Assembly: GCA_030248295.1 (NCBI GenBank)
Contig: JASANH010001028.1
Coordinates: forward strand, 1 to 64,000
Origin: Mesodorylaimus sp. YZB2_4
Lineage: Eukaryota > Nematoda > Enoplea > Dorylaimida > Dorylaimidae
Direction of reading: 5' to 3'
DNA: 64,000 nucleotides
Made by a program: the position numbers and the translations under genes. Numbering within the stretch: the stretch's first letter is position 1; every line of letters starts with the position of its first letter. A model generated the notes under the pieces. That model had not been told where the DNA came from, ran no database searches, and was given only the letters and a program-made list of their open reading frames with translations. Positions 6,713 through 63,474 of the stretch are shown here, in pieces.

Positions 6713-6882
6713 CTGCAAGTACAGAGGGCACTTACGTCAGCAAATTAATGTCTGCAGGACGCGGTAGGCAGAGAGAGAATGATCGAAAAAGAAGAAAAAA
6801 GGCTCTGGCTGGTTGTCCTCGTCGTCTTTTAGCTAGTCTATAGTAGTGTCAGACTCTCTGGTGCCTGATTTTATTTAATTTT

Positions 6883-8868
6883 GTGCAGCTGTTCAGCTGT
6901 TGCGAAGAAGAGAGGTTTTGCCGAAATGATCATCGAATTGCTGCAAAGTCTATCAACAGCGCAAACCTGGCATATCTGGTGGCTCAACTAACGGGCGATG
7001 CCAAATCAGTGGTCGATGGGTTAGCGGTCACAGGCGAGAACTACGAAACGGCGATTCAGCTCCTCAAAGACCGCTTTGGCAACGACCAAGAAATCATGCG
7101 AATGCACCAACGAGCCATTGTGAATCTGGAGGGTGCCCGGAACATGGAAGGCTTGCGCCAACTGCAAATCAATCTTGAAAAGCATCTGCGCTCGATCGAA
7201 TCACTGGGTGGCGCGTTCGATGAATCTTGGACGACGAGTTTGATCTGGCCGAAGTTGCCAGCGTTTGTTCTCGAGAAGATCTACGAAAAGAAGCCCGCCG
7301 AGCAATGGAAGCTCAAAGAATTGCGAGCCGAATTGACCAAGATGGTATCAATCCATGATGCTGTTGCCCGCGAGCGTATCATGCAATACGAGAAACGAAA
7401 GACGAGCCATGATCAGCTTAGTCATCAAAGCAGCGAAACGAGGGGAAAACCAAGCGTACCCAAGACGAGCCATTCGTTTCTGATCAACAGCAAGAGTAGA
7501 GCAAAGCATACCTCAAAAGCTGTCACCAATTATGATCATGTCAAGAACAAGCCTCGCTCTCCATGCATCTACTGCGAGGGCGACCACTCGGCCGATGAAT
7601 GCCAACACGTGGCCACAGTTAAAGAACAAAAGAGGAAACTCAAGGACCATTGCTGGCGATGTCTCAAAGCTGGCCATCAAACTGACCAATGCTGGGCGAA
7701 AACAAAGTGCTATCATTGTCGAGACACCAGCCATCATTCAAGCCTCTGCGAAAAGCGATCGAAGGCACCGTATATCGACACTGGGGCAACCACAACGACG
7801 CTCGCTTCGGACGTAAGCACTAGTCTGTTCACATCTAATCAAGCAGTGCTTTTGCAGACGGCCTGGGGCGATATCCAATCCTTGAATCAAACTCCCCGAT
7901 CAATCAAAGGGCGAATTCTCCTTGACAGCGGAAGCCAGCGAACTTATGTAACTGATGACCTGATCAAGCGACTCGCTATCAAACCAACGTCGTACGAAGA
8001 AATCGTGCTGTACACGTTCGGTGCCAAAGAACCAAAACGAATCAAGTCTGCAATCGTCGAGCTTCAGTTAAAGGGTAAGCTCGGACAACAAATCAAAATC
8101 AAAGCCAATGTCGTCCCGCAGATCGCTCAATCGTTGTGGCGGAGCGCCGCGATGCTCGCGGATCTGAAGGACATCCTCGACAACTATGATCTAGCCGATC
8201 CAATCCTAAACGACTCAGAAACGATCAAAATCGATATACTTATCGGCATTAATAAATATGAGCGTATCCTGATAGCCAACAGCAAAGAAATCGGACCAAG
8301 CCTTTATCTCCGCAACTCTATTTTCGGGTGGATCGTTTTCGGCCAAACCAAGAACCAAATCAAAATCGCTGAGCCAGCCTCAACATTCAACTGCTTTGTC
8401 TCGTCAGTTGCAATCAATAGTCAAGAGCTGAATCACCTCGAACCACACATCAAGGATCAAACTCAAATCAACGACTTGTGGGAACTCGAGAAGATTGGCA
8501 TCACTGACAAGATCAATGAACGTGACGATGAGAAAGCCATGCAGATGTTCAATAAAACAATCAAATTTGCGAACAATCGATATCAAGTTCAATGGCCGCA
8601 GAAAAACGAACATCTCGATCTGCCAGTTAATTATGGGCTATCTTTGGGGCGTCTCAAGTCAGTGATTCGTCGCTTACAACACGACCCTGAGCTGATGATC
8701 AAATACGATGCTATAATTCAAGATCAATTACAGAAAGGAATTATCGAGAAGATTGATAAAGACAAGATCGATGGCCCGATTCACTATCTGCCGCACCATC
8801 CCGTGATCACACCTGATCGGCCGCACAGTCCCACAGTACGCTCCCTACCTGCATGGCCTAAATTTTAG
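6883..8868 (+). pseudogene. BEL/Pao retrotransposon gag-protease fragment, truncated at the start of RT
   Basis: A 661-codon open frame of a BEL/Pao LTR retrotransposon polyprotein. The N-terminal part resembles the BEL gag domain DUF1759 (NLAYLVAQLTGDAKSVVDGL, NYETAIQLLKDRFG) but lacks its usual first portion. Three CCHC zinc knuckles follow from about residue 227: CIYCEGDHSADEC, CWRCLKAGHQTDQC and CYHCRDTSHHSSLC. Next comes the aspartic protease (DUF1758) with LLDSGSQRTYVT near residue 345. The frame ends just after the motif that opens the reverse transcriptase (HYLPHHPVI), then shifts into unrelated residues and a stop. RT, RNase H and integrase are missing, no direct LTRs are seen and no in-frame ATG starts the frame, so the element cannot move by itself. 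Confidence 0.88.
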
Positions 8869-10415: not shown

Positions 10416-13296
10416 TCACGTAAATTTCTGCTCACTCGGGCATGTTTTTTTGGCTTCCGCCAACTTGGCTTTCTCTTTTCTGATCGCTTGGATCATTGAC
10501 GATTTTTCTACGCATTGCTGGCATCTGAAACAAACCTCGCTCATAACGAACAGCGAGCGTCGAAAATTGGACTTTGCTTACAGTTTTGCACTAGGACATT
10601 CGTCTAGCAGGTGAATACACTTTGTCAAAACCCGTTTCGCCATGGCGTGGCAACCAATCAGGGGCAAATCGTCAACAGTGATGTTAGCTTGTCCATCACA
10701 GTGTTGCTCCACGTAGGCCACGATTTCTTCTGTATTTTCAATCTTCATCTGCTCAAACATAGTTTGAATATCTTTGATAATGGCGCCACTATTTTTGCAG
10801 CGTTTTTCAATTTGAGAATAAGCCTCTTCTAATCTTTTCATAAAAGCGTTTTTCCCAGTTGAGCTTCGGTTTAAAACTGATGAAAAATCATTCTTAGTTA
10901 GATTTAGAGCACCGTGACAATTGGCGTTGAAATAGTCCGATATTTGATCAGGGCGTGTCAGGAAACTGGTATTTCCATTATCGTGCATAAGTTGCAGATC
11001 TTTGATTAAGAGATCAGAATTTGAACAATTTTGCTGAACCTGAAACAAACTAACGATAAGTAGATGCAGAAGATTTCTGGTCATATTTCTACATCTGCGT
11101 AAAATATGGTTTCAGATCAGGATAATCTCCTTATCGTAAGTTAGATGCGATTTCTCTGTTTCTGTCAATGTGTTAACGGTTCCTTCGGACTAATGCAGAA
11201 ATGACGCATATGTATTTCGCAATGACAAATAAATTTTTTTAGAAAAGCAAAGTCACTTACTTGCCAAACGGAATTTTCCAATTTTAAATCTAGTGGTGCG
11301 GGTAAATCCTCGACAGCAATAAATGACTGGTTGGCACAATAACTTTCGAATATTTGAACAACTTGATATCGCGTATAAATTTCTTGTTTTTGATATTTTT
11401 GCGTCAGTTCACGAAGAAGTTGAGTCCAGTTGGTGCATTCTTGTTTAATCTGCAATGATACATGGATATGCCCTGAATGATTCGAATGGTACTCTGCTGC
11501 TTGGTATGCACAGCCTGACACATTGGCCGAACACGCTTGAGAATGTGCAGTGACATCACGATGAAACGTGGTAGGTATGCACACTTACTGGATGGTTCTG
11601 GAGAGTTCAAGTAACAGTGTCATTGAAGCCGTCAGAAACGAAACGGCTTTGCAGGCAATACGCTGCTGAGCCGAAGACAACGAAATACCCGCAAAATTTG
11701 GGTAACCAGGGCAAAAAAAGATTACGACTGCTTTGACTTTGTGCTGTGGACAACGCAAAGAATTTTCACTCTTTGCTCGCTTCAATTTTAATTTTACCGA
11801 CTGACATCAGGAAGGTAAAAATTTTTTGAAATTCTACAAAAATCGCGAAATTTAAAAATTCACTGCAGCCATTGCCATTGGTTTTCCCCAAACCATCCAC
11901 TTAGTCTGCATGCCAAGTTTTTTGTGACGTCACTGTTCGAGTTATGGAGACATACACTCTAAAATGTGTTCAGCTCTGATCGTGAGAAAGAGATTTTTCT
12001 GCAACATGTACAGTATAGTTCCCATTCATTTTCGCGTGACTTGTGATTGCATTCCAACACCTTGAACCAAGTCCGCGTACAAATAGTCTTGGCTGCCAAC
12101 ACCTCACTTTGGCATATAACTGTTCCAATTTGGCGTCTCCACCAGGCAGATCGTCCGCATTCAAACTGGTATTGCCTCGACACGCCGTCTTGATATATTC
12201 GACCATGTCAAAACGAGTCGTCAATTGTCCTTTATCGTGTTTCACTTTCGCCTTGTGCATCACATCCTCGCCATTAGTACATTCCTTGACCAATTTCATC
12301 ATCACCTCGTGCATTTTTTGCTCATGATCGTCAATGATTGGGTGCCTCTGAAAAGTGAATATGATGAATTTTGGGATGCGGGGAATGCGCGCGCTCGCAG
12401 AGAAAATTCATGAGTGCATTCACACGGAAGTAAAGCTGTTTAAGCTGAATTATTGGGACCTTCGCAAGTCTAAATCTTGATTAATTTAAAGTTTCCGCCA
12501 ACGTGATCTTTAAAATTTGCCGCAGGCGTCGCTGAGCGTTCTGATTGGACGAAACCCGCACAGTACATCGAGAAGGTATATTCGCTATAAGCGATTTCAA
12601 AAGATTATAACTGCAGGGTAAATTTTTAAATTTTTTGGAAACGTAAATGGTCTATTTGTAGAGTGCGCTCACGCTCCCTATCACAAATTTTAGAGAGCAG
12701 AAACAGCTCACAATCAGAGTTGCATTAAGAAATAGGAATGGAAAAAGAATGAAAAAGATGAGCCCCGAGTGGAAGTTGAACCCTCGTCACTGGAAGTGCC
12801 AGGGTTATAATAGCGCTGTGCTATAGCTCATCATCCTCAAGTCTTGTGTTCGAGTATATCAAAAATGTTTCTTACGATAAACTGGTACAGCCAGAATAAG
12901 ATAACGCCAGCAGACTTGCCTTTTTCCTCATATTTATGAGCGGGCACGTAAAATTCCACTCCAAGCCCACACCAGTGATACACTTTGCCATAATTCTTGT
13001 CTGGTCTTCGTGTAGTTCGGCCAAAGATTGTTCTCGATCATAAATCTCCTGTTGGCATTCACTCACATTTTCACTCTTTGTCATAATTGTGAAAGCTCGA
13101 TTACAGCTGGCCATCTTATCAGCAGCTTCGCTTAAGCAATTTGCCACTGCGATACAGTACACGTTCTGAAAGGGAGACAAAAACGAAATGAGGGGTTAGG
13201 TGCCAGCTACCCTAGGATTACCTGACAATTGGTCACTTGTAGAAATGTACAAGCTATGGTGGCTAGCACCAAAACATACGGCATCTTCCCATTCAT
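10416..13296 (-). CDS. Secreted cysteine-repeat protein, four copies of a ~60-residue C-x-N...C...DDL module (6 exons, unrecognised)
   Basis: Six exons (complement of 13222-13296, 12920-13165, 12108-12347, 11261-11449, 10582-11039 and 10416-10524) join without a frame break to encode 438 residues. Introns 1-4 are phase 0 and the last is phase 2. Exon 1 is a signal peptide (MPYVLVLATIACTFLQ). Exon 2 is cysteine-rich and ends at the unusual but strong GC donor AAG|GCAAGT. Exons 3, 4 and 5 carry one, one and two copies of a module opening C-[TSK]-N, with a second Cys after 32, 32, 35 and 32 residues, then an acidic [DE]-[DE/N]-[LF] motif (NADDLP, VEDLP, KNDFS, VDDLP). Exon 6 adds a CQQC motif and a lysine/alanine-rich helix. 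I do not recognise the family. An extracellular, disulphide-linked helical repeat protein is inferred. Exon 6 depends on skipping a stop that lies directly at the exon 5 donor. Confidence 0.72.
12768..12836 (-). repeat. tRNA-like (SINE head or tRNA pseudogene) in intron 2
   Basis: On the minus strand, TGAGC pairs with a terminal GCTCA. Between them lie an A-box-like TAGCACAGCGC and a B-box-like GGTTCAACTTCC. The anticodon arm does not fold cleanly into 5 bp plus a 7-base loop, so a functional tRNA is unlikely. A similar arrangement with AGTGCTCTTATTAAC lies at 51365-51445, suggesting a dispersed tRNA-derived family. Confidence 0.35.
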
Positions 13297-16200: not shown

Positions 16201-16814
16201 ACGTCAGGGATTGCTCTTTCATCATTCATATCATTTTCAACTCCCGCGGCACTAAAACCTCGGAGTTGCTGCTGTTCATGCCGCCAAGGAAATTCATTGT
16301 TTCCTCAATCAAATGGCACAGCAAGAAAAAAATGATTTTGATGCATTTGAATTTTTCCATAGTCTTATTTAGCCATAGGTTGGTTTCGAAGCTTCGAAGT
16401 CAGCGGAAAACCGTGATGCTGTTAGAATCGAGCTGTTTTTATGGCGGTGTTCTGCTCTTTAAGAAACACCTTTTCATGTTAGCTGGACGCTGACACACAG
16501 CGATTATTTTGAAATCCTTGGTCCTATGTTCACTAGCACGGCTTGGAAGGACCAGGAAATAATTTTGACCCCCTCACACACGTGGTTCTACAAGACTACA
16601 TACAAAAAGCTGATCCTGTTCTTTCTAACAAAATGAGAGTAAAGATCGATCAATAGTATCTCTAGCTGAATGTCATTGTCGTCTAATCCCACAAATTTAG
16701 CGATCACCCATTTCCCTATCGTTAGAAACAAACACCTTCTAAAAACAAGTCTGCCCTTGATGCTTTGATTTTCAATATTCTGGGTGCATATCAGACAATC
16801 TATTTTACTGCACC
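13297..16814. other. Intergenic stretch
   Basis: No gene supported. About 14364-14530 is a copy of a dispersed repeat shared with 23195-23360 (listed separately). A frame at 15012-15368 is open but starts without ATG and shows no domain. The rest is AT-rich sequence without recognised content, except a GGGCGGGAAT motif near 15700 that belongs to a recurrent motif class discussed in the findings. Confidence 0.5.
14364..14530 (+). repeat. Dispersed repeat, copy 1 (partner at 23195)
   Basis: Shares with 23195-23360, in the same orientation, the blocks GAAAAACGGTCTTATT, TCTG(C/T)TATGACAGAC, GGCTGGTCT(A/T)CTCGG and CACACGAAGAGAG, in the same order and at similar spacing. It is an unidentified interspersed repeat without coding capacity. 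Confidence 0.6.
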
Positions 16815-17723
16815 ATGCCTGCATTAGAAGCCAATCTGTCATCACCAAATAACGAATCTGATTCACTCCAGGTTTGTTTTTTTACTCTATACTCCGGTTT
16901 TGTCCCAGCCTCACTCATCCTCAACATAGTCGTAGTTTATACAATATCGAAGCATCGAACAATATTTTCCACTAGTTTCTATACAATAATTCAGGGATTA
17001 TTCATTTACAATTTCTTTTGTATTTTCTTCTTGACAATGCGTTTTATCGGAATAACATTCAATTTTCCAATAATTTTAATAAATATATTTATCTGGCTCA
17101 TAATAAGCATTGGTTCCTATCCCAGTTATTTGTGTCAAATTGCTCAGGCAGCAAATCGAATGACTGCCATGATGGCTTATAATTCGTATAAAACAATTTT
17201 TACGAGAAAGCTATCCGTCATTTTAGTTATTCTATCACTAATATTTAGTGTATGTATGGCGTCAGTGTTTATAACCTGGCACCTGATGACTGTTCACGAC
17301 GATGTCATTTTTGACTTGGCCGACACGGGGCCTACTCTGGCTTGGGCTGTCTACGATGAAATCATGATATTCGGAACCTGCATTCTTCTGGTTATTATGT
17401 ACGCTTGTGCAATGGTCGCGTTTCGTTGCACGAAATGCAGAAGTTCAGTTGGTCAGAATACATCAGCACCTGAAATTATTGAGCTGAAGCTGACCTTCCA
17501 TGGCGCAATTATTGCTTGTAACATGATCGTCTCAGAAATGTATTTCATAGCACAGCTGGATAATCAATTTCTTTGGGAATTTTTCTTTGTTTTGTCGATC
17601 AAAAACCAAGCCAACAGGATCTCTGCTGTCCCTTCACGTATACGTCCACATTCATATCACCAGGTCCTTCCACCAAGCCCACATCACATTTCACACAGAA
17701 AAAACCAGAGTATTGGTAGTTAG
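16815..17723 (+). pseudogene. Serpentine 7TM chemoreceptor-like gene, frameshifted in the C-terminal region
   Basis: An intronless frame that closely parallels the gene on the opposite strand at 17981-19174. The N-terminus PALEANLSS matches ATLEANISS there, and FIYNFFCIFFL and PSYLCQIAQAANR are shared exactly. About seven hydrophobic segments are present. QAANRMTAMMAYNSYKTIF sits where nematode serpentine receptors (Srx-like) have the NR...Y...F signature after TM3. After LWEFF, about 5 bases (near 17580-17595) are missing relative to the paralog. The frame therefore departs into an unrelated 40-residue tail, while the paralog-like sequence (MFCR...) continues in another frame. Either the last segment and cytoplasmic tail are lost or this is a young pseudogene. 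Ligand unknown. Confidence 0.6.
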
Positions 17724-17980: not shown

Positions 17981-19174
17981 TTAGTAAATGCAATAACATT
18001 CCTTCATATTTCCCACCATAGTCGTCAAATCATTTTTTAAAAACCTCAGATCTAAAAGCGAGTAGGGTCTGTCCACTGGAGACAAATCCTGGAGTCGAAC
18101 AACTATGAAAAGGTTCCTGTAGCTGCTGATGGTAGTAACTTGCAAAATTTCTGTATTTTTGACCCGTTTGACCCGATCTTTCAAAAAAGTGACCCGACCC
18201 GATTTTGACCCGACCCGACCCGACCCGAAAGTACCTGACCCGATCCGGGGTCTATGGGTAGTACGAACGCTTCGATTAGTGGATAATAGTACAACATTGG
18301 TTTTTTCAATCATTTGTTTCCATAAGATAACGGTCCTTAAAACCTTGGCACGTAATTTCTTGTCTAGCATCAATAGTACAGTACGACTGGGTCGGCGGCA
18401 AAACATGAGACAAAAAAATTCCCAAAGAAATGCATTATCTAGTTGTGCTGCGAAATATATTTCGGAGACGATCAGGTTGCAAGCGATAATAGCGCCATGG
18501 AATGTTAGTTTCAGTTCGATAATTCCAGGCGCAGCTGCACCTTGACCAGCTGAACTTCTGCATTTCGCGCAACGAAACGCGATCATGGCGAAAGAGTACA
18601 TAATGGCCAAAAGAATGCAAGTGCTGAATACCATGACTTCATCGAATGTTATCCAAACCGCTGTCGCTTCAGAGTCTGCGAAATCGAAAACGATATCCTC
18701 ACGAACAGTTATGAGGTGCAAAACTGCAAATACCGACATGGTACACACAGTTATCACGACCGACAGTATAACTAAAAAGACACTTCTTTTTTTGGGAAAA
18801 ATTGTTTCGTAGTTCTGATAAGTCGTGATCGCGGCCAGTCGATTTGCAGCCTGAGCGATTTGGCACAAATAACTGGGATAGCAACCCAAGCTTGTAACCA
18901 GCCATGAAGTTATGCTTGTAAAAAGTGATGGCAAATCGAGAGTGATTCCAATAAATCGCGGTACCAAGAAAAAAATACAAAAGAAATTGTAAATGAATAA
19001 TCCCCGAATCATTGTATAGAAACTCGACGAAAATATTGTTCGATGCTTATAAATGGTATAAATTACGCCGAAAATAAGCGCCACTGGTGCAACACCAAAA
19101 TAAAGACAGAAGAAACCAAGCCAATCAGATTCAGTGCCTTTTGATGACGAGATATTAGCCTCCAGCGTAGCCAT
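17981..19174 (-). CDS. Serpentine 7TM chemoreceptor-like protein
   Basis: Intronless minus-strand gene of 397 residues from the ATG at 19174, chosen because MATLEANISS aligns with the start of the paralog at 16815 and TM1 follows shortly after. Seven hydrophobic segments are visible. CQIAQAANRLAA with YQNYETIF follows the third, as in nematode Srx-type serpentine receptors, and a basic cytoplasmic segment (CRRPSRT, KKLRAKVLR) follows the seventh. Predicted plasma-membrane chemosensory receptor, ligand unknown. The reading frame continues through a GGGTC-type repeat, adding a Gly/Ser/Arg-rich tail (RIGSGTFGSGRVGSKSGR), so the native C-terminus may be repeat-derived. The gene is convergent with its frameshifted paralog, about 260 bp apart. 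Assignment to Srx rather than another 7TM class is tentative. Confidence 0.7.
   Translation of the reverse strand: MATLEANISSSKGTESDWLGFFCLYFGVAPVALIFGVIYTIYKHRTIFSSSFYTMIRGLFIYNFFCIFFLVPRFIGITLDLPSLFTSITSWLVTSLGCYPSYLCQIAQAANRLAAITTYQNYETIFPKKRSVFLVILSVVITVCTMSVFAVLHLITVREDIVFDFADSEATAVWITFDEVMVFSTCILLAIMYSFAMIAFRCAKCRSSAGQGAAAPGIIELKLTFHGAIIACNLIVSEIYFAAQLDNAFLWEFFCLMFCRRPSRTVLLMLDKKLRAKVLRTVILWKQMIEKTNVVLLSTNRSVRTTHRPRIGSGTFGSGRVGSKSGRVTFLKDRVKRVKNTEILQVTTISSYRNLFIVVRLQDLSPVDRPYSLLDLRFLKNDLTTMVGNMKECYCIY
18160..18252. repeat. (GACCC)n-type repeat, copy 2, inside the 7TM reading frame
   Basis: GACCCGACCCGA-type tract in the 3' part of the minus-strand 7TM gene. The junction sequence before the tract is similar in both paralogs (TAGACACCGGATCAGG against TAGACCCCGGATCGGG). 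The repeat was therefore probably already at the 3' end before the inverted duplication. Confidence 0.7.
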
Positions 19175-19829
19175 GACAGCTGCCTGCCTGGTACAACTGA
19201 AGGCTACCACGTGACAATGCAGGCTTAGTGCTTGATAACAATGCGTGCCCTTTCTGGCCGTCGAGTTTGTACGAACTTGTCGTGAAAACCAATCTTGATG
19301 CAGTAGAAAATAACGCAACGAATAAAGCAGTTGGGTATTGGAGAACTTGAGCGCAGGGATTAGTTGTCCGGAAGTTTATATCCAGAACAAAACCTTCTCA
19401 AGCTGATAGTGGGTGAATTGATAAGTACTTCTATTGTGACCATCAATTCTGGCCAATTCGGTTTTCTCAAAGGATATTATTAAAATTTTCGCTTGGCACC
19501 ACTGCCTAATTAGGAATTCTCAGTGTCCCATTTGCTGCAACTAAACTAAATTAAGTCCATGGTGATCTTTGAGGATTGAACTCGTACTCACGTCTAAACG
19601 CCAGAATGAGGATTCCGAATCGGACTAGTTCGATTCGAATCATGTGGGACAAGTATGGGGGTAAAAAGAAGTGGCAGCATACAGTAGTTGGACAGTAGAA
19701 CTGCGGGGTCGTGACTCGAGGGAATCTGCGGCACGGACCTACTTTACTGGCTCTGGGGGACTCACCAGAAACCCAATCGGAGGTGGTGGACAAAGACCGA
19801 GTAGAGGAAACTGCTGCTCATGCGCCAGT

Positions 19830-33560: not shown

Positions 33561-34469
33561 TTAAGCTTTTTCTTTTGATTCACAGGAGGACTTCTGAGGG
33601 CCAGACTCGGGCAGCGTTATTTCACAGCATTTCATGTCGACGTTATTTAGCGCGGTGTCATCTCCAGCGCCTAAAAAATCGACATCTTTGTATTCGAATC
33701 TATGGTAGTGCTGGCGCATATGCATCATCATACGCGCGCAGGCACTACCGTGCGTTCGGTAACTTAGCATACAGTGCATTAGAGGTAGTACTTTGCTGAA
33801 CATGGGCGTGTTTGTATGCAGAGCTATGCACTATCCTGACCCTAACCACTGATCAAATGACAAGACTAGGTATCAGGAACATAATTTTGACGCACTTATT
33901 CACACTCCAACGTGAAATCGCACATCTTTTCGCACCAACTTACCTTGGCGTGGTTCGATTTGACTTCTTATCCCGCAAACCACTTTATTCTTTTCGCACC
34001 TGCGGGGAATAGAGTCGTACCAGTTGGTATGTAAACGATGCTGACGACCATCACCTTCTAATTCGAGGTCGTCCGAGCACGTAACCCTCAAATTATCGAC
34101 ACCAGTGTCATCAAAATGCTTTGGTCCCATGAACAATGTTGAGAAACCAATAATATACTCATTTTTCCTACATTGAAATATTCTTCCATCCTTTCCGAAT
34201 GGCCCTTCCCCACTGAAGATCTTAAAATTATCGCGTTCTGTCGCATTTGGTTTCGAACAGTACAAATAAATCGTATTAACGCATGTGTTGTCTCGAAAAA
34301 GGCCACCAGGAGCAAACCGTTCATAGCGAAGTTGAAATGCATAAGCATAACTGCCATTCGGACAATAAACAAATTCGTGCCACTTGCCATGCGCCGACAT
34401 CCGTTTCGACTCCAAGATTTGCCCAGCCGCAAATGATAAAACGGAGAAAAAGCAAAAAATACCAAACAT
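33561..34469 (-). CDS. Secreted VMO-I (vitelline membrane outer layer protein 1)-like protein
   Basis: Two exons, complement of 33944-34469 and 33561-33670, join at AAG|GTAAGT and TTTTTTAG|GC to encode 211 residues. A signal peptide ends near FAAGQ. Three copies of the family signature, which mark the threefold beta-prism of VMO-I, are visible: DNTCVNTIYLYC, DDTGVDNLRVTC and (across the junction) GDDTALNNVDMKC. The flanking CPNGSYAYAF, IFSGEGPFG, FQCRKNEYIIGF and CGIRSQIEP segments also fit. Family members are extracellular carbohydrate-rich-coat proteins of eggs and other secretions; the exact role here is unknown. A TATA box lies 52-61 bp upstream of the ATG. The gene is a tandem paralog of 35290-36016, with which it shares upstream and downstream flanks. 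Confidence 0.88.
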
Positions 34470-34520
34470 TTTTATGTCGTCAATCTAAAAGCCAAATTAT
34501 AGTAAGCCAATACGCCAACT

Positions 34521-35289: not shown

Positions 35290-36016
35290 TCAGCTGCTCG
35301 CTTCACCATTAGACTTCTGAGGGCCAGACTCGGGTATTTCACAGCATTCCATGTCTACGTTGTTCAACGCGGTGTCATCTCCTGCGCCTAAAAACATCGA
35401 AATCTTCATCCTCAAATCTAGCGACCCTGCATACGGTTTATGACCGCACATTGGTTATATCTAAACATAGCAACAACTACTTATCTTGGTATGGTTCGAT
35501 TTGACTTCTTATTCCGCAAACCACTTTATTGTTTTCGCACCTTGGAGGAACTGAGTCGTACCAGTGTGAATAAAAGCGATGCTCGTGACCATCACCAACC
35601 AATTCCTGATCGTTCGAGCACGTAACTCTCAAATTATCGACACCAGTTTCATCAAAAGCGTCTGATTCCATGAACAATGTTGAGAAACCAACAATATACT
35701 CATTTTTCCTACATTGAAATATTCTTCCATCCTTTCCGAATGGCCCTTCCCCACTGAAAATCTTAAAATTATCGCGTTCGGTCGCATTTGGTTCTGAACA
35801 GTACAAATAAATCGTATTCACGCCAGTGTAGTCCCGAAAAAAAGGACCAGGAGCAAGCCGCTCATAGCCAAGTTGAAATGCATAAGCATAACTTCCGTTT
35901 GGACAATAAACAAACTTGTGCCACTTGCCGTACTCCGACATCCGTTTCGACTCCAAGATTTGCCCAGCCGCAAATGATAAAACAGAAAAAAAGCTGAGTA
36001 AACCAAACATTTTCAT
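35290..36016 (-). CDS. VMO-I-like paralog 2 with a mutated splice donor
   Basis: Tandem copy of the preceding gene: complement of 35485-36016 and 35290-35387 would encode 209 residues with signal peptide and all three family signatures (DYTGVNTIYLYC, DETGVDNLRVTC, GDDTALNNVDMEC). The acceptor (TTTTTAG|GC) and the frame of exon 2 are intact. The donor that reads AAG|GTAAGT in gene 1 is AAG|ATAAGT here, a change of the invariant G. Without splicing, translation stops four codons on (QDK-stop) and the third repeat is lost. Either the copy yields a truncated product, uses a rare AT donor, or has recently become a pseudogene. The start is chosen at MKMFG (36016); an ATG two codons downstream (36010) matches gene 1. 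Confidence 0.75.
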
Positions 36017-36070
36017 GTCGTCAGTCAAAAAGCCAGTCTGCTAACGATAAGCCAATATCCTAACCAACTC

Positions 36071-40523: not shown

Positions 40524-43268
40524 GTTCTCTCTCAGCCGCTCCAAGTTCCAAGTCTGCTGATGTTTGTTATCGCCACCGCAGCAGCCTCGTGCGCACTCAT
40601 TCGTCTACGCCTACGTGAGGCAGGGAAAATGACTAAAGTCCAAGCGAATGTTGTCTCGGTAAAGAAGGGCTCTAAACGAGCAGAAACTAGTTTATTGCCC
40701 GCCCAAACCGCTTCGTTGACGACAAACCTGAATGCCCCTGGCTTCAACGCGATCATTCTTTCACTGAACATGGAACAAATAGGCATCAAAGTTTTTGAAC
40801 ATCCCAAGCAGTCTACGTCAAAAGAAAACTTAGGCTGTAGTGATGACTGCGGGGTAGAAAAGAATCTTTGACGACTAGCTGTTGGCGTTGTGAAGACGAA
40901 AACTGCAATGAGTCATGGTGGAAGGAAAGAAAGAAGTATCCGAGAAGTTGATGTTTAATGAAAATGCTGATATAGGGCTTGAATACGTGTAGGAGTTTGA
41001 GTGGCAATAGACGAACTTGTTAAAGAGAGATTAGTCGAACAATAAGCGATTCTGATGCGTGAGGAAAGGGCAGCCGCTGAGAAAGTGGCTGACAATGAGC
41101 ATGACGTCCTGGCCGCTAGTGATGCGATCCTTGCCAGTAGAACGCTGTCCGTGTATCCTACAAGGTGTTGTAGTTTCTATCCATTCTACCATACCCAGGT
41201 ACCTAATTGTTCACCATATCTGCACGGGCTATCTGCCCGGCTACACGGGTCGTTTATCAGTTTTGACCATGTGAGCTACTGTGCAACTACATACCCGCGT
41301 GTCCCTCCCTTTTAATAGTTTTAACAGGTACATAGGTGGCCCACTTGGAATAACTTTACTGCTACTAGTTTCGATAAAGATAAACAGTCACACGTAAAAG
41401 CGTTCAAAGAGTCAATTCTGCATCGCTCGATTTGTCACTAAATGGTTGGTGAAGGAAAGATCGCCAACCGTCAAGTCGAACTTTGCAAAACCAAAAATTG
41501 AGATTTGATCCTCAGTGCAGAAAAAATGTCTGGACAAAACATTAGAGGCGTCTGGCCAGCTGGTCAGCAGTGATGAGCGCTGAAATTCTGGGGGAAATTT
41601 ATGAATTCTTCTGAATATCTGGATTTCTGCCGCAGTTTGGAAAAGAGCCCTGCGTGTTTTTTCAATGCTTGCTTGAGCTTCTCACCAAACAAAAATTCAA
41701 ACGTCCACATGACTTTAGGCGCTGACCACTTAGCCAGACGCCTCTAATATTTTGCAGAGAGCTTTTTTCAGCTAGGGAGAGATTAAAATTTTTGGTTTTG
41801 TAAAGTTCGACTTAACGATTGGCGATGTTCCCTTGTGAGAGATTCTTATGTGAGAGAACTATGACTCAAGACGCTCTTTTTGTTTTTTCCGAGATCTCTA
41901 GCAACTGGCGAATTAAGCACATTGTGCATGATCCTACTCGAAAAACATATGAACAGTTGAGGTGTCACATTTTTAGGTTGTCTGGGCTGTCTGGGTCGCT
42001 GTCTCAGAGACCCTGTTGAATTGTCTATCCATGGGGTTATACTCTACCATCTGTTTTCTTTGGGGGTGTACGCGTGGCCTATGCGGTAACGTGGAGGGCG
42101 TGTTTATTCTCAAAGAAAACAGGTTATAGTATCGTCCAAGTAGTTGGGGATGGGCATAGGCTCTTGTAGTCGGCGTGGATTAACTAGATCCTCAAAAGCA
42201 TCGATAACGTTGGCTGGCGGAGTGAAGGCCAATGCGGCGATCATGCGAATCCGTCAGGTGAACTCGTTGTCATTTTCGTATCGCACCTTCAACGCTTCAT
42301 TCTTCAACTGTTCCAAATCGCCTGAGAGAGATGCAAGAAGCATTTCCGTGCAGCTAACTGACTGAAAGACTGCAAGGCTTGAATGCCGGCGATTTTAAAA
42401 TCATCAGTGGAGCAGGTTGAAGTAACTTGACGCATGTGGGATGACTGAATACATACGTGTTTCAATACATTTGCTGGAGTAGCCGCGGTAGTCTTCGACA
42501 GTCTGCGGGAGCGGATGAGCACCAGCAACGTCAAGATCCGAGCAAGGTCGAGATCCCGATCCTGATCCCGACTTTACGCCATAGGGACTCTGCATATATT
42601 ACCATAAGCAGCAGTAAGCGACGAAGAACAGCAACATCAGCTCAAATCGATGATAACGATGTGACCTAGGCTGATCTTGCTGGAGATGTATGTATTTTGT
42701 TTGTTTTTGTGTGTAAGCCAAATGGGCGAAATAGCTGGGGGCGAAACGGGTCAGGGGCGAAACTACGGGGGGGGGGGGGGGGGGAACGGCGGGGCCAAAT
42801 GTCTTGAATGCCTTAATGATCTTCATACTTTTTGTCAGTCTTGCGTCATGAAGCGGCTGTTGCCTCACACTGGCACGTAAGTTGCTCTCTGCCACCTCCT
42901 AAGCATTGGTCAGGAAATGATCCCGAAAAACCTGATCCTAAATGTGAAATGTCACAATATGCAATGGTTTTGCGTCACAGGACACGCCGTATTCGTGTGT
43001 GAAAAAATTTATTTGACGCGGCGCAATCTGGTCGTTTACCTTGCTTTCCAGTGATTAATTACTAGCGACGGATTATGTATATTTCGCGCGAGGCTGGCAG
43101 ACATTCAATTGGAAGGAAAGCATGTCACAAAAGGCAGCTTTATCATGAGGTTCAATTATCACACCAGTGCTTTCAAGAGGCAGGTGCAGCTGAGCTTTTG
43201 CTCTGACTAGCATTAGAGGGCGTCGAGCGAGGAGGCGCATTGTTTAGTACATGGCAGCTTGATAAACC
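40524..43268. other. Intergenic stretch with a foldback element
   Basis: No supported gene. It holds the foldback element at 41460-41826 and an 18-base G run at 42767-42784. Overlapping frames at 40532-40871 and 42404-42895 show no domain. Confidence 0.5.
41460..41826. mobile_element. Foldback MITE-like element with long inverted termini
   Basis: The left end ATCGCCAACCGTCAAGTCGA, continuing ACTTTGCAAAACCAAAAAT, is the near-perfect reverse complement of the right end (AAAATTTTTGGTTTTGTAAAG, then TTCGACTTAACGATTGGCGAT). A second inner pair matches: TTAGAGGCGTCTGGCCAGCTGGTCAG at about 41542 against CTGACCACTTAGCCAGACGCCTCTAA at about 41722 (differing by a short indel). The ~367-bp unit can form one long imperfect hairpin and has no coding content. 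I could not fix a target-site duplication. Confidence 0.65.
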
Positions 43269-44492
43269 ATGCTCGAGTATCTGGCGAACTTTACTCGATT
43301 GCCGAAAACACTAGCAATTTTGACCGGTTATGGAGCTCTGTCAGAAGATCGACCTATTATGCTTCGGATACTCTATAGTCTTTATTCCCTTTGCTTGATT
43401 TCAATGCCCTTATATGGCTTTGTAAGGTCTTTTGCATTGCTTCAATGGTCGGGTGTGGTGGAAATTCGTTTCGCCAGCATAATCTTATACGCTTGCTGGT
43501 GTTTGCAGGTCGTCTTCTGTGCACTTTTCTGTGTTTTTAATCTTTGGCGCGGGAATTTCGAGAAGTTTGAAAGAGCATGGCGAGAATCTGGAGCGGATAA
43601 AATGATCGAGAAAAGCGAATTCAAAAAATATGCGTGCGCTTGGTTTTCACCCGCTTTCTGTTTCGTCGTATTTTACACCCTTGCAAACACAGCGGCAGCA
43701 ATTTTACCCCACCTCGGCGTAATACCATTCCCATTTACACCCGATGTATTTCCCTATCCCGCACTCAGTATTTATTATTTTTCAATTCATCACACGTTTT
43801 CAGCCCTTGTTTGGATTTTATCCCAATTCTGGTATTTTGTTGTTTGCGTCCTCTTTCGCTACGCTTGGCTCGGACTGTGTGAAACTATCGAAGGGTCCGC
43901 TTCTTCCAAAGATCCTACCCTCTCTGGCTATCCTCACGTTCTTCGCTTTGTGACGCATCAACACCGCCATCTTTCGGTAATTATGGATAAGATAAACCAT
44001 CTGTACGGCATGTACGCTCTCGGTCTGATGGCTACTGGAATTCCAGTCACCATTCTCCAACTTTACTTGGTCGCCTACTATGTCTCAACCGTGTCCTCTT
44101 TTATCGCAATGATGTTCTGGTTAATGGGGAGTATAATTCAGATTATACTGATTTTCTCCGCATCAATGATCAATTCTACGTCGAGCAACGTCGCTGATGC
44201 GTTGTATAATCGATATATCGAGCATTACGAGAGTTTTGTGCAGGGAAATCTCGAAGGCTACGAACGTCGTCGACTGAAGGTACCTTATCTTTGGGAAACG
44301 TCGATTCTATTAGAGAAACTATACAACACAGAAGTCAAATTGACCGCGCACGGCTGCTTCGATGTGACAAAATCATTTTTCATGACTCTGATATCAGTTC
44401 TGGTCACTTATTATTTAGTTCTGGTCCAATTCGCACCGCCGGCCGGTGCAAACATTTATGGTCGCGAAAACGGTACAAACAGCACCTATTGA
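43269..44492 (+). CDS. Gustatory receptor family (7tm_7) protein
   Basis: Intronless frame of 407 residues with about seven hydrophobic segments. The C-terminal HGCFDVTKSFFMTLIS followed by VTYYLVLVQF is the diagnostic gustatory-receptor TM7 signature (TYhhhhhQF, about residues 379-388). Insect and other invertebrate members are inverted-topology, ligand-gated cation channels in chemosensory or light-sensing neurons; the nematode LITE-1/GUR family belongs here. A cytoplasmic-type loop rich in charge (FEKFERAWRESGADKMIEKSEFKK) separates TM2 and TM3, and RRRLKVPYLWETSILLEKLYNTEVK precedes TM7. AATAAA lies at 44568. The downstream decayed copy shares the same layout, so the pair arose by tandem duplication. 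The ligand cannot be told from sequence. Confidence 0.85.
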   Translation: MLEYLANFTRLPKTLAILTGYGALSEDRPIMLRILYSLYSLCLISMPLYGFVRSFALLQWSGVVEIRFASIILYACWCLQVVFCALFCVFNLWRGNFEKFERAWRESGADKMIEKSEFKKYACAWFSPAFCFVVFYTLANTAAAILPHLGVIPFPFTPDVFPYPALSIYYFSIHHTFSALVWILSQFWYFVVCVLFRYAWLGLCETIEGSASSKDPTLSGYPHVLRFVTHQHRHLSVIMDKINHLYGMYALGLMATGIPVTILQLYLVAYYVSTVSSFIAMMFWLMGSIIQIILIFSASMINSTSSNVADALYNRYIEHYESFVQGNLEGYERRRLKVPYLWETSILLEKLYNTEVKLTAHGCFDVTKSFFMTLISVLVTYYLVLVQFAPPAGANIYGRENGTNSTY

Positions 44493-45965: not shown

Positions 45966-47254
45966 TGTCTACTAATCTCTCCAGTTTAACCAAACTACCA
46001 AAAACAATAGCCCTGTTTTGGGGGTATGGAACGTTGTCCGAAAATCGGCACATTGTTTTGCGTGCTCTCTATGCTTAATGTATACTCTGCTTGTACTGTT
46101 GCATTGCCAAGCTTCGCTATAGTGCGTTCTTTTATGGTGATCCAGTGGCGGGGCGCAGTTAAAATGCGTTTCGCCAGCATAATATTATACGCTTGCTGGT
46201 GCGTCCAAGCACTCTCCTCTGCAATTTTCTCTATTTTCCATTTCCATCGTGGTAATTTCGAGAAATTTGAAAAGGAATGGCAAGAATGTATGACTGATGG
46301 AATGGTGGCGAGGAGTGAGTTCAAGAAGTATGTTTACTTTTGGTTTGTGCCTGCTTTTGCATTTGTAGTAATTTATGTCCTAATAAACGTGATCATCGCA
46401 GTATTGCCATTTTATGATGTTATGGTTTTTTCATACCCACATTATATTTCCGTACCAGCCCCTGAGCTTGTACTTTTTTATCATTCATCATACCTGTACG
46501 CCCATAATTTGGGTACTGCCCCAATAGTGGTACTTCGTCGTATGTGTTCTATTCCGATATGCATGGCTTGGTTTGTGCACAACTGTTGAAACGTCTGGTT
46601 CTGGGAGTAATCCCGAACTTTTGGCCTACTCACACGTTTCACGATTTTTGACTCAGCAGCATCGTCAGTTATCAACAGCCATGACAAATATGAATAACCT
46701 ATACGGCGTGTATGCCCTTGTTTTAATGGCCACTAGAATTCTAGTTACTATTCTACAGTTGTATCTGGTCGCCTCGTATGTGAGCACTGTCTCATCCATG
46801 ATGGCAATGACATCTTGGTTGTCGGCTAACATAATTCGGTTTTTTTTTAATTTTCACTGCATCGATGATCAACTCGGCATCAGCTGGGGTAGCTGATGCG
46901 TTGTACAGCCGGTATATTGAACATTTCGAAAATTCTATGAAAGATGATTTGGAGGGACCTCGACAAAGGATTAGAATACCTTTTCTAACAGACACATCCA
47001 TAGTGTTGGAGAAGTTGTGCAATACTGCAGTCAAATAGACAGCTTGCGGATGTTTCGATGTGACAAAATCTTTTTTAATGACATTATTATCGATTTTAGT
47101 AACTTATTATTTGGTCCTTGTGCAATTCTCGCAATCGTCAAGTGAAAACAGCTGCAGGTCGGTGAAAACAATTGGTCGACTAATGCTTGATGACGTAAAT
47201 TCCTTTTCTGAAACCACCTTTTATCATGCCCTGGGCAACGCTCGAGTAACATGA
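45966..47254 (+). pseudogene. Decayed tandem copy of the gustatory receptor gene
   Basis: Collinear with the gene at 43269 over its whole length but split across frames. The start (SLTKLPKTIALFWGYGTLSENR) is followed by a frame change near 46073, and FASIILYACWCVQAL with FEKFEKEWQECMTDGM follow in the second frame. A further loss of frame near 46500 leads to the HVSRFLTQQHRQLS segment. Another shift at the T-run near 46840 precedes ADALYSRYIEHFENSM. An in-frame TAG at 47036-47038 follows NTAVK. The TM7 signature VTYYLVLVQF is still intact after it. At least three frameshifts and one stop preclude a full product. The preserved signature suggests the loss is recent. Confidence 0.85.
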
Positions 47255-50792: not shown

Positions 50793-50914
50793 TCCTAAAA
50801 ATATGTATGAAAGATCTGGGATATTGCTTTTGTGGTTTGCAGAAATTACCTACCCCAAAGATGTACTGACATCCTACTCACTAAAAGTTTTCGATTTTCG
50901 ATCATGTTCTGCAG

Positions 50915-51184
50915 GTACGCTGTCAGATGTAGCGAGTGCCGCGTGTATGTGCTATATGCTGTGTGCAGGTACGCTGTCAGATGTAGCGAGTGCCGCGTGT
51001 ATGTGCTATATGCTGTGTGCAGGTACGCTGTCAGATGTAGCGAGTGCCGCGTGTATGTGCTATATGCAGTGTGCAGGTACGCTGTCAGATGTAGCGAGTG
51101 CCGCGTGTATGTGCTATATGCTGTGTGCAGGTACGCTGTCAGATGTAGCGGGTGCCATGCCGTGTGTGCTACACTTGCACTAAC
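50915..51184 (+). repeat. 54-bp tandem repeat (minisatellite), 4 near-identical copies plus 1 degenerate
   Basis: The unit begins GTACGCTGTCAGATGTAGCG and starts at 50915, 50969, 51023, 51077 and 51131. The first four copies differ by a single base (TGCTGT to TGCAGT in the third); the fifth diverges in its second half. As 54 is a multiple of three, several frames stay open through the array on both strands (one reads LSDVASAACMCYM, another RCSECRVYVLYAV), but this follows from the period. Each unit boundary reads TGTGCAG|GTACG, which could act as a splice acceptor. Confidence 0.85.
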
Positions 51185-58262: not shown

Positions 58263-60370
58263 TGACCCTGAAGTTATTGGACCCATTTGGTCAAACGGAC
58301 AGCACTAATCAGCGTCCAAAATCCTGAGACTGATTTAAAATCTTCCTGCTCCGTAGGCCGTTTTTTATGGGGAAAGCAAAAGCCATTAGTGTTCGAACTC
58401 GGAGCGCAAAACCCAAAACCTGAAAATCGAGTATGGAAAAACCCCGCGAAAATTTTCTCAACCCTCTGTCTCCGCACCACCTGGACACCACTACACACGA
58501 AATTGAAAAATCCGCAGGATTTAGACCACGCTCCGCGCTGATCATTGCTGATCCGCGCTGATCTTTTCTGGCCAGTTGGTCAGACTGGTCCAGTATTTCG
58601 CAAAGAGCGTTTTTGCTTCTGGAAACATATTACAATAATCGATTATGTCGAGTTTAACGGTTGACGAGGCTTCCTCAAATCAAGGAGATGAAAATTCTTT
58701 CGTTCACGTGCAAGAGCTGATAAACCGCTGCAATAATGTAAATATGTGGTAATGTCTTCCTATGTTGGACCCAAATTTAAACGGATCCGTACCATTTAGA
58801 GCATTTTAAGGACAACAAAATATGCCTCTAACTCGCGATCGACTGGATTCGAACCACCATTCGTCTCAGCTGCGTTCCGTTTCTCTTTGAGATCTGTACG
58901 AACAACCAAAAGAAGTACATTAATTTGAGAAAATGGGGTAATTTGAAATTGAATCTAACTGATTCTAAAAAGATTCAGTCCAATTCAGTTTTTGCGAAGA
59001 GATTCAATTTCACTTCTAGCTCCAGTTACAGCTGACTGAATCAAAAAATTAAGTTACCCAATAGATTCAGCTTCAGTATCTGTATGACCGCTACCCTTAA
59101 CTACTATTGTGACAAGCTATTCGAGGGATGTAAGATCTACATAGCTCAGTGCACTTTTTTAATCTTTTTATGTCCCTTGTCTTTGCCTTCCTAGTTCTCT
59201 CCAACATCAGGCGTGACCTGCTGACTCGTTTCAGTTACCTGCCATCACTATCGTAGTCAGTCTGATCGTAAATGTGCGCAAACCTTATACAACTTGATGG
59301 CTTTTGAGATCAGGAGTCTAGAAGCAACTTAGTGCAGCACACTGTGAGGAGACAGCAGCATTGATCAAACATTGGTATTGTATTATTCTTGTATTCTTGA
59401 ATTGTGGCTCTAGTTGGCTGATATATTGGGAAAGTATCTAACGCGAACCGTTGAATTTCTGCTATTGCTTTGCCCTGTGCGCACGCTATCCCACTCTCAC
59501 GTACTGCTAGCCTTTTGGAGCGCTCTGGAACCAGTAGGTATTTCTGAGCTGTCAGGAGATAGATCAGGAGAAATCAAACCACTCCGCTTGTTCTAGTTAC
59601 CTTGCTAATACTCCTGCTTGCGATCAAAGTTCGTATTAAACCCGTTTAGCGCGTGGCTCCTCGAACAAGAAGTGCCTTGTGCAGCCAAGCACAACCCAAC
59701 AACTGTGGACCCGCAGTCGCGTATTTCCTGTGCTCTTTTCTGGAATTAAATAAAATAAGTGTGCCTCTTTACGAACCCTGTTTGGAAAACAATTTTTTAG
59801 ACTCAAACAGAGCTTACTAGTATTTCGAGACGTCATAGGTCAGATGCGAAGAGCCCCAGCCCCTTATTCCCAAGATACCCATGCCGTTTTTTCCCATGTC
59901 CGTTTCCGTATGAACTGTCGCAATACGACCAATACGCCAACCACAGTAAACACTCATCAGGTTTTTCTAGTTAGCTGTTATGTCATTTTGATTTAAAATA
60001 GCTATTTTCTGACGCAGCCTTCAATTTTCTGAAAGTACGTGTTAAGCAAGTAATCTATCTTTACCAGGAGATACAAAATGGAAAAATATCCAGCATTGCT
60101 GATTTTTTTTGACGTGGTTTCTCAAAATTTTTTATTAAATACAGTAAGTCACGATATCATGCAAATGCAACCGTGGACTACAACAGCCGCATCAAATGTT
60201 GGACCTATCTATTTTCGTTCTCAACCGACCATCTTTGCCACATGCTGCGCCCTGGTTTCCTAGGCAACTTATAAACACAGCGGATGGTTTTATACGAAGC
60301 GAATTAGCTACCCGTGTCAGCCACGCGTCTGACTCATGCATTGATAGCTTCGATCGATAGTAGGTACCAA
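58263..60370. other. Intergenic stretch
   Basis: No gene supported. Overlapping frames on both strands at 58274-58545 have no domain. A tRNA T-arm-like GGTTCGAATCC on the minus strand (about 58833-58855) marks a possible tRNA-derived repeat. The region just before 60370 should contain the promoter of the kinase gene; no clear TATA box is seen. Confidence 0.5.
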
Positions 60371-63300
60371 ATGTATAGGCAACAACAAATGGGCGAAACG
60401 AAAGAATCGATTCATAATTACGATATAATTAAACAAATCGGGTCTGGTTCATTCGGTGTCGTATATTTGATTAAAAATAAAGATTCCAAAGAGTCTAGCG
60501 AGGAGAAGGATGTAAAAAAAGAGTTTTTGGTAATGAAACAAATCTCTTTGGCTAAATTGGATGCTAGACAACGCGTGGACGCCCAAAAAGAGATCCTCCT
60601 TTTGTCGACTCTCACACATCCAAACATTATTTCTTATCGACATTCATTCGAGAACGATGTACAACAACTGCATATTATTATGGATTACTGCGATGGAGGG
60701 GATTTATACAGGAAAATTGGGGAAAGGAAGAAGCTGGGGGTTCCATTTGATGAACGACAGCTGGTGCAATGGTTTGTCCAAATATGCTTGGCACTGAAAT
60801 ATATTCATGAGCGGAAAATTTTGCACAGAGACTTGAAAACGCAGAATATATTTATGTGTGATGGAGACAACACAGTCAAGGTGGGCGACTTTGGTATCGC
60901 GAGAATTTTGGATCACACTGCAGACTTGGCAGCGACATGCATTGGAACTCCATATTATCTCAGGTAGGAGGTACATGATTGCTTTTCGTGTATTGCCCCG
61001 CCATTTGAAAGCAGTTGGTCGGCTGACCTTCAACACCCCTAGTCCTTACCATGTGCGGCATCCAATGAACAGGTTTTAGATCAGAAATCGGAATCAAGCA
61101 TAGACCATTTTATTTTATCGCTTGGCATGAGTCAGTCTCTATTTTTGGCACAAGTGTTTTTCATGTGGGATCATTTAGTGACATCTTTTCAACACACTCA
61201 AGGCATACATTATACATAGTGTGCCTCGGCGGCTAGTCTCGTGCGCACCTCTCACAAGACGATTCGGTCATCTGACTTTGCAGACTTTTTGCACAAAAAA
61301 ATTAAAAAGACGACGTACACTCTATAATCGATGTCGGAATATTGAAAAAAAAGTATGACATTCAGATTTAGCACCCAAGTTTTATGGGGGGGGGGGGGGA
61401 GGGAGGGGGTAGCCAAAATTCTGGGCTCCGTAGAAAAAGCCGAAATTCTTGATTTCAAGGACACTATTGGGAAATAGAAATTTTGAAATCATGGAGATAG
61501 ATCCCAAAATTTTCCTACCACCTATAAAAAGCGAGTCTTGAATCTAAATATCGTGTTTTTTTCAGTATTCCGGCATCGATTCTAGACTGCACGTCGTCTT
61601 AGGATGATGATGGAACTAAATTAGGAATGTTCCACGTGCCATCGTGCTCATAGTCAGCAATCGTAATCACTCAAAGTTAAGGACAATTTTTCGTCTTCGC
61701 GGCATAGTAAACATTAGAAAAAAGTTAGCTTTGCACCCAAGAAATCTTAGGGTCGATCCGGGTCGAATCTTAGGGTCGATCAATCAATAAAAGGTACCAG
61801 ATCCTGAGTACATAAAAGCGGGAGTTCCAAAAACGATTTAAAAATTCCAATGGTTTTTTAAGATCATAGTAGGAAGATACTGGCTCGCCCCATACTTGAC
61901 CGCTGACCATCGCTGATCGCGAGGGCGATGGTGCGTGAAACTTTCCTGGTTGCGTTTCACGATCATCCGAGATTTCTACGGTACATATGGGAATAAGGTT
62001 AAAAAGTCAAAGAGCAGGGTCGACGGAGGTGCGTAATAGATTTTGTTAGGTTTGATAAGAAGAAATACTCGTATTTGACGATTTCAGCCTAGATTGAAGC
62101 GCATCGTTAACTTTTTCGATCGATTCCCCCTCCCCCCGCGCTATAGGATTTAAAGGGGCTACAAAGGGATGCTTATAAGTAAGAGAGGACGCAAATGAGG
62201 ATTCACGGTCACAATATGAGCTTAGCACGAAGGTGAAACATTTCCACTGACACCTATTTTGCTTTAGCCCAGAAGTTTGCCAAAGCCGACCCTATGGCAC
62301 CAAAACCGACATCTGGGCGCTTGGATGCGTTTTATACGAATTAGCCACCTTTCGTCATCCATTCGAAGGCCGACACCTCACCGAGCTGCTGGGAAAAATT
62401 GTACGTGGCACTTATGAACCACTGCCATCCAATTACTCATCACGGCTAAAACAATTGGTCGGTCACATGCTGAAAGTGAATTCCAGCGAGAGACCAGACG
62501 TCAACGGCTTACTACAGAGAGAATACGTTTATGAACACGCCTGTAGTTTCTTGAAGAAATGGGGAAGGAATGATGAGCTGGCGATCTTGGAAGGTTTAAT
62601 CCGCCAAAAACGCCCCGCTACTTTGGACGGAAAGACGTTAACAGCAAGTGTTGGAATTAGTTCACTTCGACGGCATACGCTCGCAACTAGTACTCGTTCT
62701 AAATCGATACCAAGCCCCAGTAGAAAAGCTTATTATGAAAAAAAGTTCCGCATGTACATGCCATCTACGGCTGGAATACGAAATCCTACAAAAAGTCGCC
62801 TCGGAAGGAATAGATCACCGAGAGGTCAACGCGGCCAGTCGCTGACACCGATTTTCGAAAATAATATTCCAGCTGATCCTGTCCCGTCACCAACTCATAG
62901 CCCTGTTGAAATGGAAAAGAAAGCAGAGGAAATTAAAATACCAGAATCGAATCGAGAAACTGCGATTGACGATATTAGGCCAATTAATTCTGGAACAGTG
63001 ACTCTAACGGTGTCTAATTCCAAGTTGCACATACCTCAAGAAAAGCTACCTAACGTTGAGATGACAGCGTTCGGGACTACTATCACGAAACCAAAAAGAA
63101 GGGAGCGAAAGAAATGGACGGCTTTGAGCAGACAACTACCGGCTTCTCCAACAGTGCCATCACCAACAGTCGCCATCGCTGCAAGTGGGTTGGAAGATGC
63201 CTGCAGAAAAGAAGCCAATTCAAAAACTGAAACGCAAGAAATAAAACAAAAGCCGGCTGCACCAACACGAGGGGTAGCTGCTTCGATACCATCGATTCCT

Positions 63301-63474
63301 GGTTCGGTTGACGATAGATGGCCTGAAGACGAGTCGCAAGTGTGTGACACATGCGGACGCCAGTACGTTGTGGGGAAACAAGCGCGAAAACAAGGAAATC
63401 GGATGAAAAAACAATGCCAAGCGTGTCGATTGATCAAGAAAAGGCACGACAATATTTCAGTTCAGTACGTATAG
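60371..63474 (+). CDS. NEK family (NEK1/3/5-type) Ser/Thr protein kinase with C-terminal CxxC-x20-CxxC module
   Basis: Exons 60371-60963 and 62268-63474 join in phase 2 (CTCAG|GTAGGA ... GCTTTAG|C), giving 599 residues. Translation probably starts at MYRQQQMG; a second ATG is six codons on. The N-terminal kinase domain shows GSGSFGVVYLI (P-loop), VMKQI (lysine), HRDLKTQN (catalytic loop), DFGIARIL, the activation segment CIGTPYYLSPEVCQ completed across the intron, and TDIWALGCVLYEL. HRDLKTQNIF plus GTPYYLSPE is typical of NEK1/3/5, kinases of cilia, centrosomes and microtubules. A short acidic insert precedes the lysine. The tail is basic and Ser/Pro-rich, then ends with CDTC-x20-CQAC near the C-terminus, a possible zinc ribbon not usual in NEKs. 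The 1304-bp intron holds a 13-base G run. Kinase identity is secure; the exact ortholog is not. Confidence 0.87.

Follow-up and report, generated by a model that had tools for sequence, protein, structure and literature searches.

A candidate nematode secreted glycoprotein with four tandem two-cysteine modules in Mesodorylaimus sp. YZB2_4

Among secreted nematode proteins, the units of NPA (PF16469; ABA-1) are described as all-helical, closed by one disulphide between two conserved cysteines, internally duplicated and cut at [KR]-x-[KR]-R motifs that are regularly spaced in the precursor, with a conserved Trp15 and a nearly invariant Gln20 (PMC3079579). Dorylipophorins such as Trichuris p43 and Trichinella PCHTP are, in the account of PMC12238268, secreted, disulphide-rich and internally duplicated. 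For C. elegans, 17 large families with domains of unknown function, together 270 putative secreted proteins, have been listed, for which homologues outside nematodes are typically lacking according to the same source (PMC3534327). Because such families are routine in nematodes, there is nothing unusual about a secreted repeat protein that matches no family. Here, we report a computational analysis of one such gene in a 64-kb window (the whole stretch of DNA analysed, 64,000 nucleotides) that opens the 738,531-base contig JASANH010001028.1 of Mesodorylaimus sp. YZB2_4 (assembly GCA_030248295.1). The gene is carried by the minus strand, from position 13296 down to 10416, and its six exons give 438 codons and a stop. 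Judging from the translation, the protein very probably comprises an N-terminal domain with six cysteines, four tandem modules of ~60 residues with two cysteines each and a six-cysteine tail.

The four modules are true homologues, because in a leave-one-out test, in which a profile of three modules was scored on the fourth and on 2000 shuffles (two shuffle kinds, eight runs), the real scores of 31-49 bits (37.2, 35.1, 31.3 and 48.7 for modules 1 to 4) stood against a best shuffle score of 11.4 bits in any of the eight runs; the real score was reached by 0 of 2000 shuffles in each. Comparison of modules 1 and 2 with modules 3 and 4 by hhalign gave a probability of 95.9%. The cysteine pairs are separated by 32, 32, 35 and 32 residues in the spliced translation, exactly the spacing given by an earlier reading made from the letters of the window (the sequence-only reading), and two further residues are invariant, an Asn two positions after the first cysteine and an Asp within an acidic motif (DDL, EDL, NDF and DDL). 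Pairwise identity is only 9-16 of 56 aligned columns (16-29%), and the earlier description of the modules as related yet diverged is borne out by the leave-one-out profiles.

The modules are distributed over the exons of the gene as follows:

13222..13296, minus strand: exon 1, with the start codon and a signal-peptide-like leader (residues 1-25); donor gtaatc
12920..13165, minus strand: exon 2, with the N-terminal six-cysteine domain; 3' end uncertain (donor either GC at 12919 or GT at 12970)
12108..12347, minus strand: exon 3, with module 1 (residues 121-176, window positions 12141-12308), followed by the first part of the linker to module 2
11261..11449, minus strand: exon 4, with module 2 (residues 183-238), the first residues of which are encoded at the end of exon 3
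10582..11039, minus strand: exon 5, with module 3 (residues 246-304), the first residues of which lie in exon 4 and which has a 3-residue insertion
10582..11039, minus strand: exon 5 also holds module 4 (residues 322-377, window positions 10659-10826), with no intron between the two modules, and part of the cysteine-rich tail
10416..10524, minus strand: exon 6, with the end of the six-cysteine tail and the stop codon; acceptor gtttcag, phase 2 join

The first four exons end in phase 0 and the fifth in phase 2, and the six phase-compatible exons and 438 residues of the sequence-only reading, which had named no strand, were reproduced with one GC donor among them. The ATG is preceded by in-frame stops 7 and 11 codons upstream. 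Each of the five acceptors has CAG at its end, extended to TTTCAG in four cases, and four of the five donors are GT. The remaining donor, that of exon 2 in the 438-residue model, is GC (AAG/GCAAGT, 7 of 8 consensus positions) and opens a GC-AG intron. When phase-0 GT sites in the frame of exon 2 were counted past its tenth codon, two were present; use of the site at 12970 (GGT/GTGGGC, consensus 3 of 8) would give a protein of 421 residues, and the site at 13066 (AAT/GTGAGT, consensus 6 of 8) would shorten exon 2 to 33 residues. We infer the GC-AG join, with which the cysteines number six in the N-terminal domain, eight in the modules and six in the tail, all even provided that the leader is cut after Cys24 (a site judged by eye), and with which an RKKR motif arises at the exon 2/3 junction. 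Exon 1 would encode a signal peptide, and the secreted type of protein proposed earlier is supported, the hydrophobic core of the leader being judged by eye.

Codon usage, trained on nine other open reading frame (ORF) stretches in the window and compared with 288 non-training ORFs (95th percentile 0.027, 99th percentile 0.074), ranked the assigned frame best of six for exons 2, 3, 4 and 5. Exons 3 (0.144) and 4 (0.126) scored above the 99th percentile, exon 5 (0.069) and the core of exon 2 (0.062) above the 95th, and the whole of exon 2 scored 0.036. For exons 1 (-0.028) and 6 (0.005), both short and little informative, another frame scored higher.

The introns preceding modules 2 and 3 occupy the same position, in phase 0 and four residues ahead of the first cysteine. 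Growth of the array by duplication of exons, with two of them fused as exon 5, had been suggested in the sequence-only reading and fits these intron positions; modules 1 and 4 lack an intron at that position, and two of four boundaries amount to modest evidence.

The cysteines of the N-terminal domain in exon 2 fall at residues 29, 35, 46, 62, 87 and 99, and those of the tail at 380, 391, 398, 404, 407 and 431. Neither region was accepted as a degenerate module: the module profile scored exon 2 at -0.6 bits, with 591 of 2000 shuffles as good, and 388 of 2000 shuffles scored equally with the tail. Exon 2 ends in MRKK and with exon 3 yields RKKR at residues 105-108, the only R-x-[KR]-R in the protein, which lies ahead of module 1 and exists only in the 438-residue model; as ~6% of shuffled sequences also contain such a motif, its support is weak. 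The 438-residue model has ten N-x-S/T sites, and the protein is probably N-glycosylated.

The modules are likely to be mainly helical, with helix B uncertain, because the summed helical hydrophobic moment of 13 segments, examined at ten angles, was reached by only 3 of 2000 shuffles and peaked at 95-100 degrees. Helix-capping patterns were present at three places in 3 of 4, 4 of 4 and 3 of 4 modules, a weak sign as any register was allowed. From the number and spacing of the cysteines, one disulphide closing each module is plausible.

The genome of the worm (145,146,385 bases, 1,067 contigs) was searched with the whole protein, with single modules and with DNA, and no second copy of the gene was found among the best candidates, which were the only ones scored. 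Single modules recovered their sister modules at 20-30% identity, so that another intact copy of similar sequence would probably have come to light. Two rows away from the locus were rejected, L020 (E 4.39) as a C-type-lectin-like fragment by eye and L035 (E 0.7) because its 10.1 bits with the module profile lie within the shuffle range. All six DNA matches on other contigs were to introns 2 and 3. These introns contain dispersed repeats (12547-12657 and 12734-12800 in intron 2, 11828-11927 in intron 3) that are 77-84% identical to copies on six other contigs; the stretch 12734-12830 has a tRNA-derived look by eye, and ARAGORN calls no tRNA there.

As to the host, the cuticle collagen N-terminal family PF01484, to our knowledge restricted to nematodes, has 133 matches in the genome, which marks it as that of a nematode, and the arthropod cuticle family PF00379 has none in a search made without a positive control. 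The NPA and FAR families were not found either, an absence that is not proven as the search had no nematode positive control. Their absence would suit a worm outside Chromadoria, the group to which PMC12238268 assigns both families.

For comparison with known families, the 421-residue model was used as the query in the whole-protein Pfam, PDB and NCBIfam searches, in a protein search of the worm's genome and in the bacterial and archaeal search, and exon 2 of the 438-residue model was submitted separately to Pfam. Nothing significant was returned from Pfam, NCBIfam or the PDB sequences for the protein, exon 2 or the module profiles, in agreement with the earlier statement that no known family could be named. 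The module profiles, which according to the sequence-only reading might have placed the modules in a known domain family, reached none in Pfam or PDB. Each of the nine families listed for these profiles in Pfam matched one of the four modules only, and in PDB they led to unrelated chains only; phmmer with the 421-residue model found no PDB chain at E values up to 10. The best sub-threshold rows were the CFAP58 coiled coil in Pfam (E 0.009; 15.5 bits for exon 2 against a cut-off of 27), an Ehrlichia repeat in NCBIfam (E 0.012) and MatB in PDB (E 0.24), all taken as chance. The Pfam and NCBIfam rows as a whole, IFT121, ARMET and others included, had E values of at least 0.009 and were below the cut-off wherever one is stated. 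In a bacterial and archaeal collection, scanned in a way that sees close relatives only, seven stretches fitted the pattern and none was confirmed. A similar scan of IMG/VR with exon 5 gave one frame without cysteines that shares the seed QTMFEQMKIE, which was dismissed as chance.

Our explanation, held tentatively and at somewhat less than even confidence, is that the gene encodes a lineage-restricted nematode secreted glycoprotein that acts outside the cell as a binding or carrier scaffold. It is possible though doubtful that the protein belongs to a known extracellular family of nematodes or other animals and has diverged past the sight of profiles, whether the family is DUF19, a GDNF/GAS1-type N-terminal domain or another. 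DUF19 (PF01579) is likewise a secreted cysteine-containing nematode domain and occurs in the same genome (eight matches, five over the cut-off, the present locus not among them), GDNF/GAS1 (PF02351) weakly matches residues 3-62 of exon 2 (14.1 bits, cut-off 22, E 0.082), and the query is a single sequence without orthologues. However, DUF19 has 157 positions and many conserved cysteines, and hhalign against five DUF19 domains of this genome gave 0.2% for the modules and 0.3% for exon 2, whereas a control of three against two DUF19 domains gave 97%; moreover, the top Pfam row of exon 2 is the CFAP58 coiled coil rather than GDNF, and no Pfam row attains its cut-off. A separate observation is a single open frame of 1836 codons on another contig (G000:C157:76282-79503, minus strand), unusually long, with three DUF19 domains over the cut-off and a fourth, partial one below it.

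By analogy, the protein could instead be helical and carry lipids in body fluid or secretions in the manner of NPA, FAR or the dorylipophorins, which we regard as unlikely. With NPA it would share, besides a nematode host and two cysteines per tandem unit, secretion, a helical fold of the units and a furin-type processing motif (PMC3079579), and if NPA and FAR are missing another carrier might be needed. Against this, the NPA model has 123 positions compared with ~60 residues per module, no Trp is common to all four modules (Trp occurs only at 95, 195 and 249) and the one possible cleavage site precedes the array, with none between modules; PF16469 was absent among the Pfam rows up to E 10, in searches whose HMMER filters lose most weak matches. 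The dorylipophorins would share secretion, disulphides and internal duplication, but p43 is mixed alpha/beta and has an unusually high content of Cys, Lys, Pro and His (PMC12238268), a richness not seen here with 22 Cys, 10 Pro and 11 His in 438 residues (Lys was not counted separately), and no match to p43 (PDB 6QIX) was obtained in the PDB sequence set, which should include 6QIX although its presence was unchecked. The repeats, glycosylation sites and cysteine-rich ends would also fit a glycoprotein with a structural role in cuticle, eggshell or extracellular matrix, which is rather improbable given that no second copy was found among the best candidates in the genome and no known matrix domain in Pfam. 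That the locus is a pseudogene or an accidental series of ORFs, for which one non-canonical donor could be cited, is largely refuted by four mutually homologous open stretches in three exons with coding-type codon usage, and has next to no credibility.

In the secreted scaffold or carrier that we tentatively prefer, cleavage at RKKR could separate the N-terminal domain from the array, each module may form a small disulphide-closed helical unit, and the modules would pack on one another through the linker segment. The array might then act in body fluid or secretions, where it would bind ligands as a soluble multivalent scaffold or carrier, a function that is drawn by analogy with NPA and is itself doubtful. 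Three observations weigh against this explanation: the 438-residue model depends on an intron of the rare GC-AG type; the 17 codons that it adds to exon 2 score -0.065, slightly non-coding; and taken singly only 4 of the 13 segments, all chosen by eye, pass 0.05 for helical periodicity, and all four B segments fall short.

A new small domain is plausible for the module, because a clear fourfold repeat without a consistent sub-threshold family is a less usual find than an unmatched secreted protein as such. The full proposal that it founds a new nematode extracellular domain family, whose disulphide-closed helical units, released from the N-terminal domain by furin, form the circulating carrier array of a lineage of worms lacking NPA and FAR, is very unlikely to hold in all its parts. 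Should the module be present in related worms as well, it would represent an extracellular domain not yet catalogued, whose history of exon duplication can be read, and the protein would be a candidate carrier, secreted or in body fluid, for a worm in which NPA and FAR were not found; as it stands, this is one orphan gene among many.

Rfam and ARAGORN searches returned nothing in the window, in which several other features were observed. Just downstream of the gene, a 673-codon ORF (6847-8865, plus strand) has CCHC knuckles, a retropepsin-like stretch and by eye the look of a BEL/Pao-type retroelement. Two similar seven-transmembrane-like ORFs face each other at 16761-17720 (plus strand; sub-threshold matches to Srx and Srg only) and 17984-19375 (minus strand; no match). 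On the minus strand lie two similar tandem VOMI (vitelline membrane outer layer I) ORFs, at 33903-34484 (PF03762, 108.9 bits) and 35480-36040 (recognised by eye). An ORF like insect-type gustatory receptors, here in a nematode, is found at 43266-44489 (plus strand; 7tm_7, 35.2 bits, over the cut-off), and a stretch that resembles it by eye, split over two frames, at 46011-46893 (plus strand). A short tandem DNA repeat at 50849-51180 appears by eye to be open in several frames on both strands. Lastly, a NEK-type kinase gene occupies 60308-60964 and 62251-63471 (plus strand), with NEK1 as the closest among solved chains for the former stretch and, by eye, the end of the kinase and a C-terminal tail in the latter.
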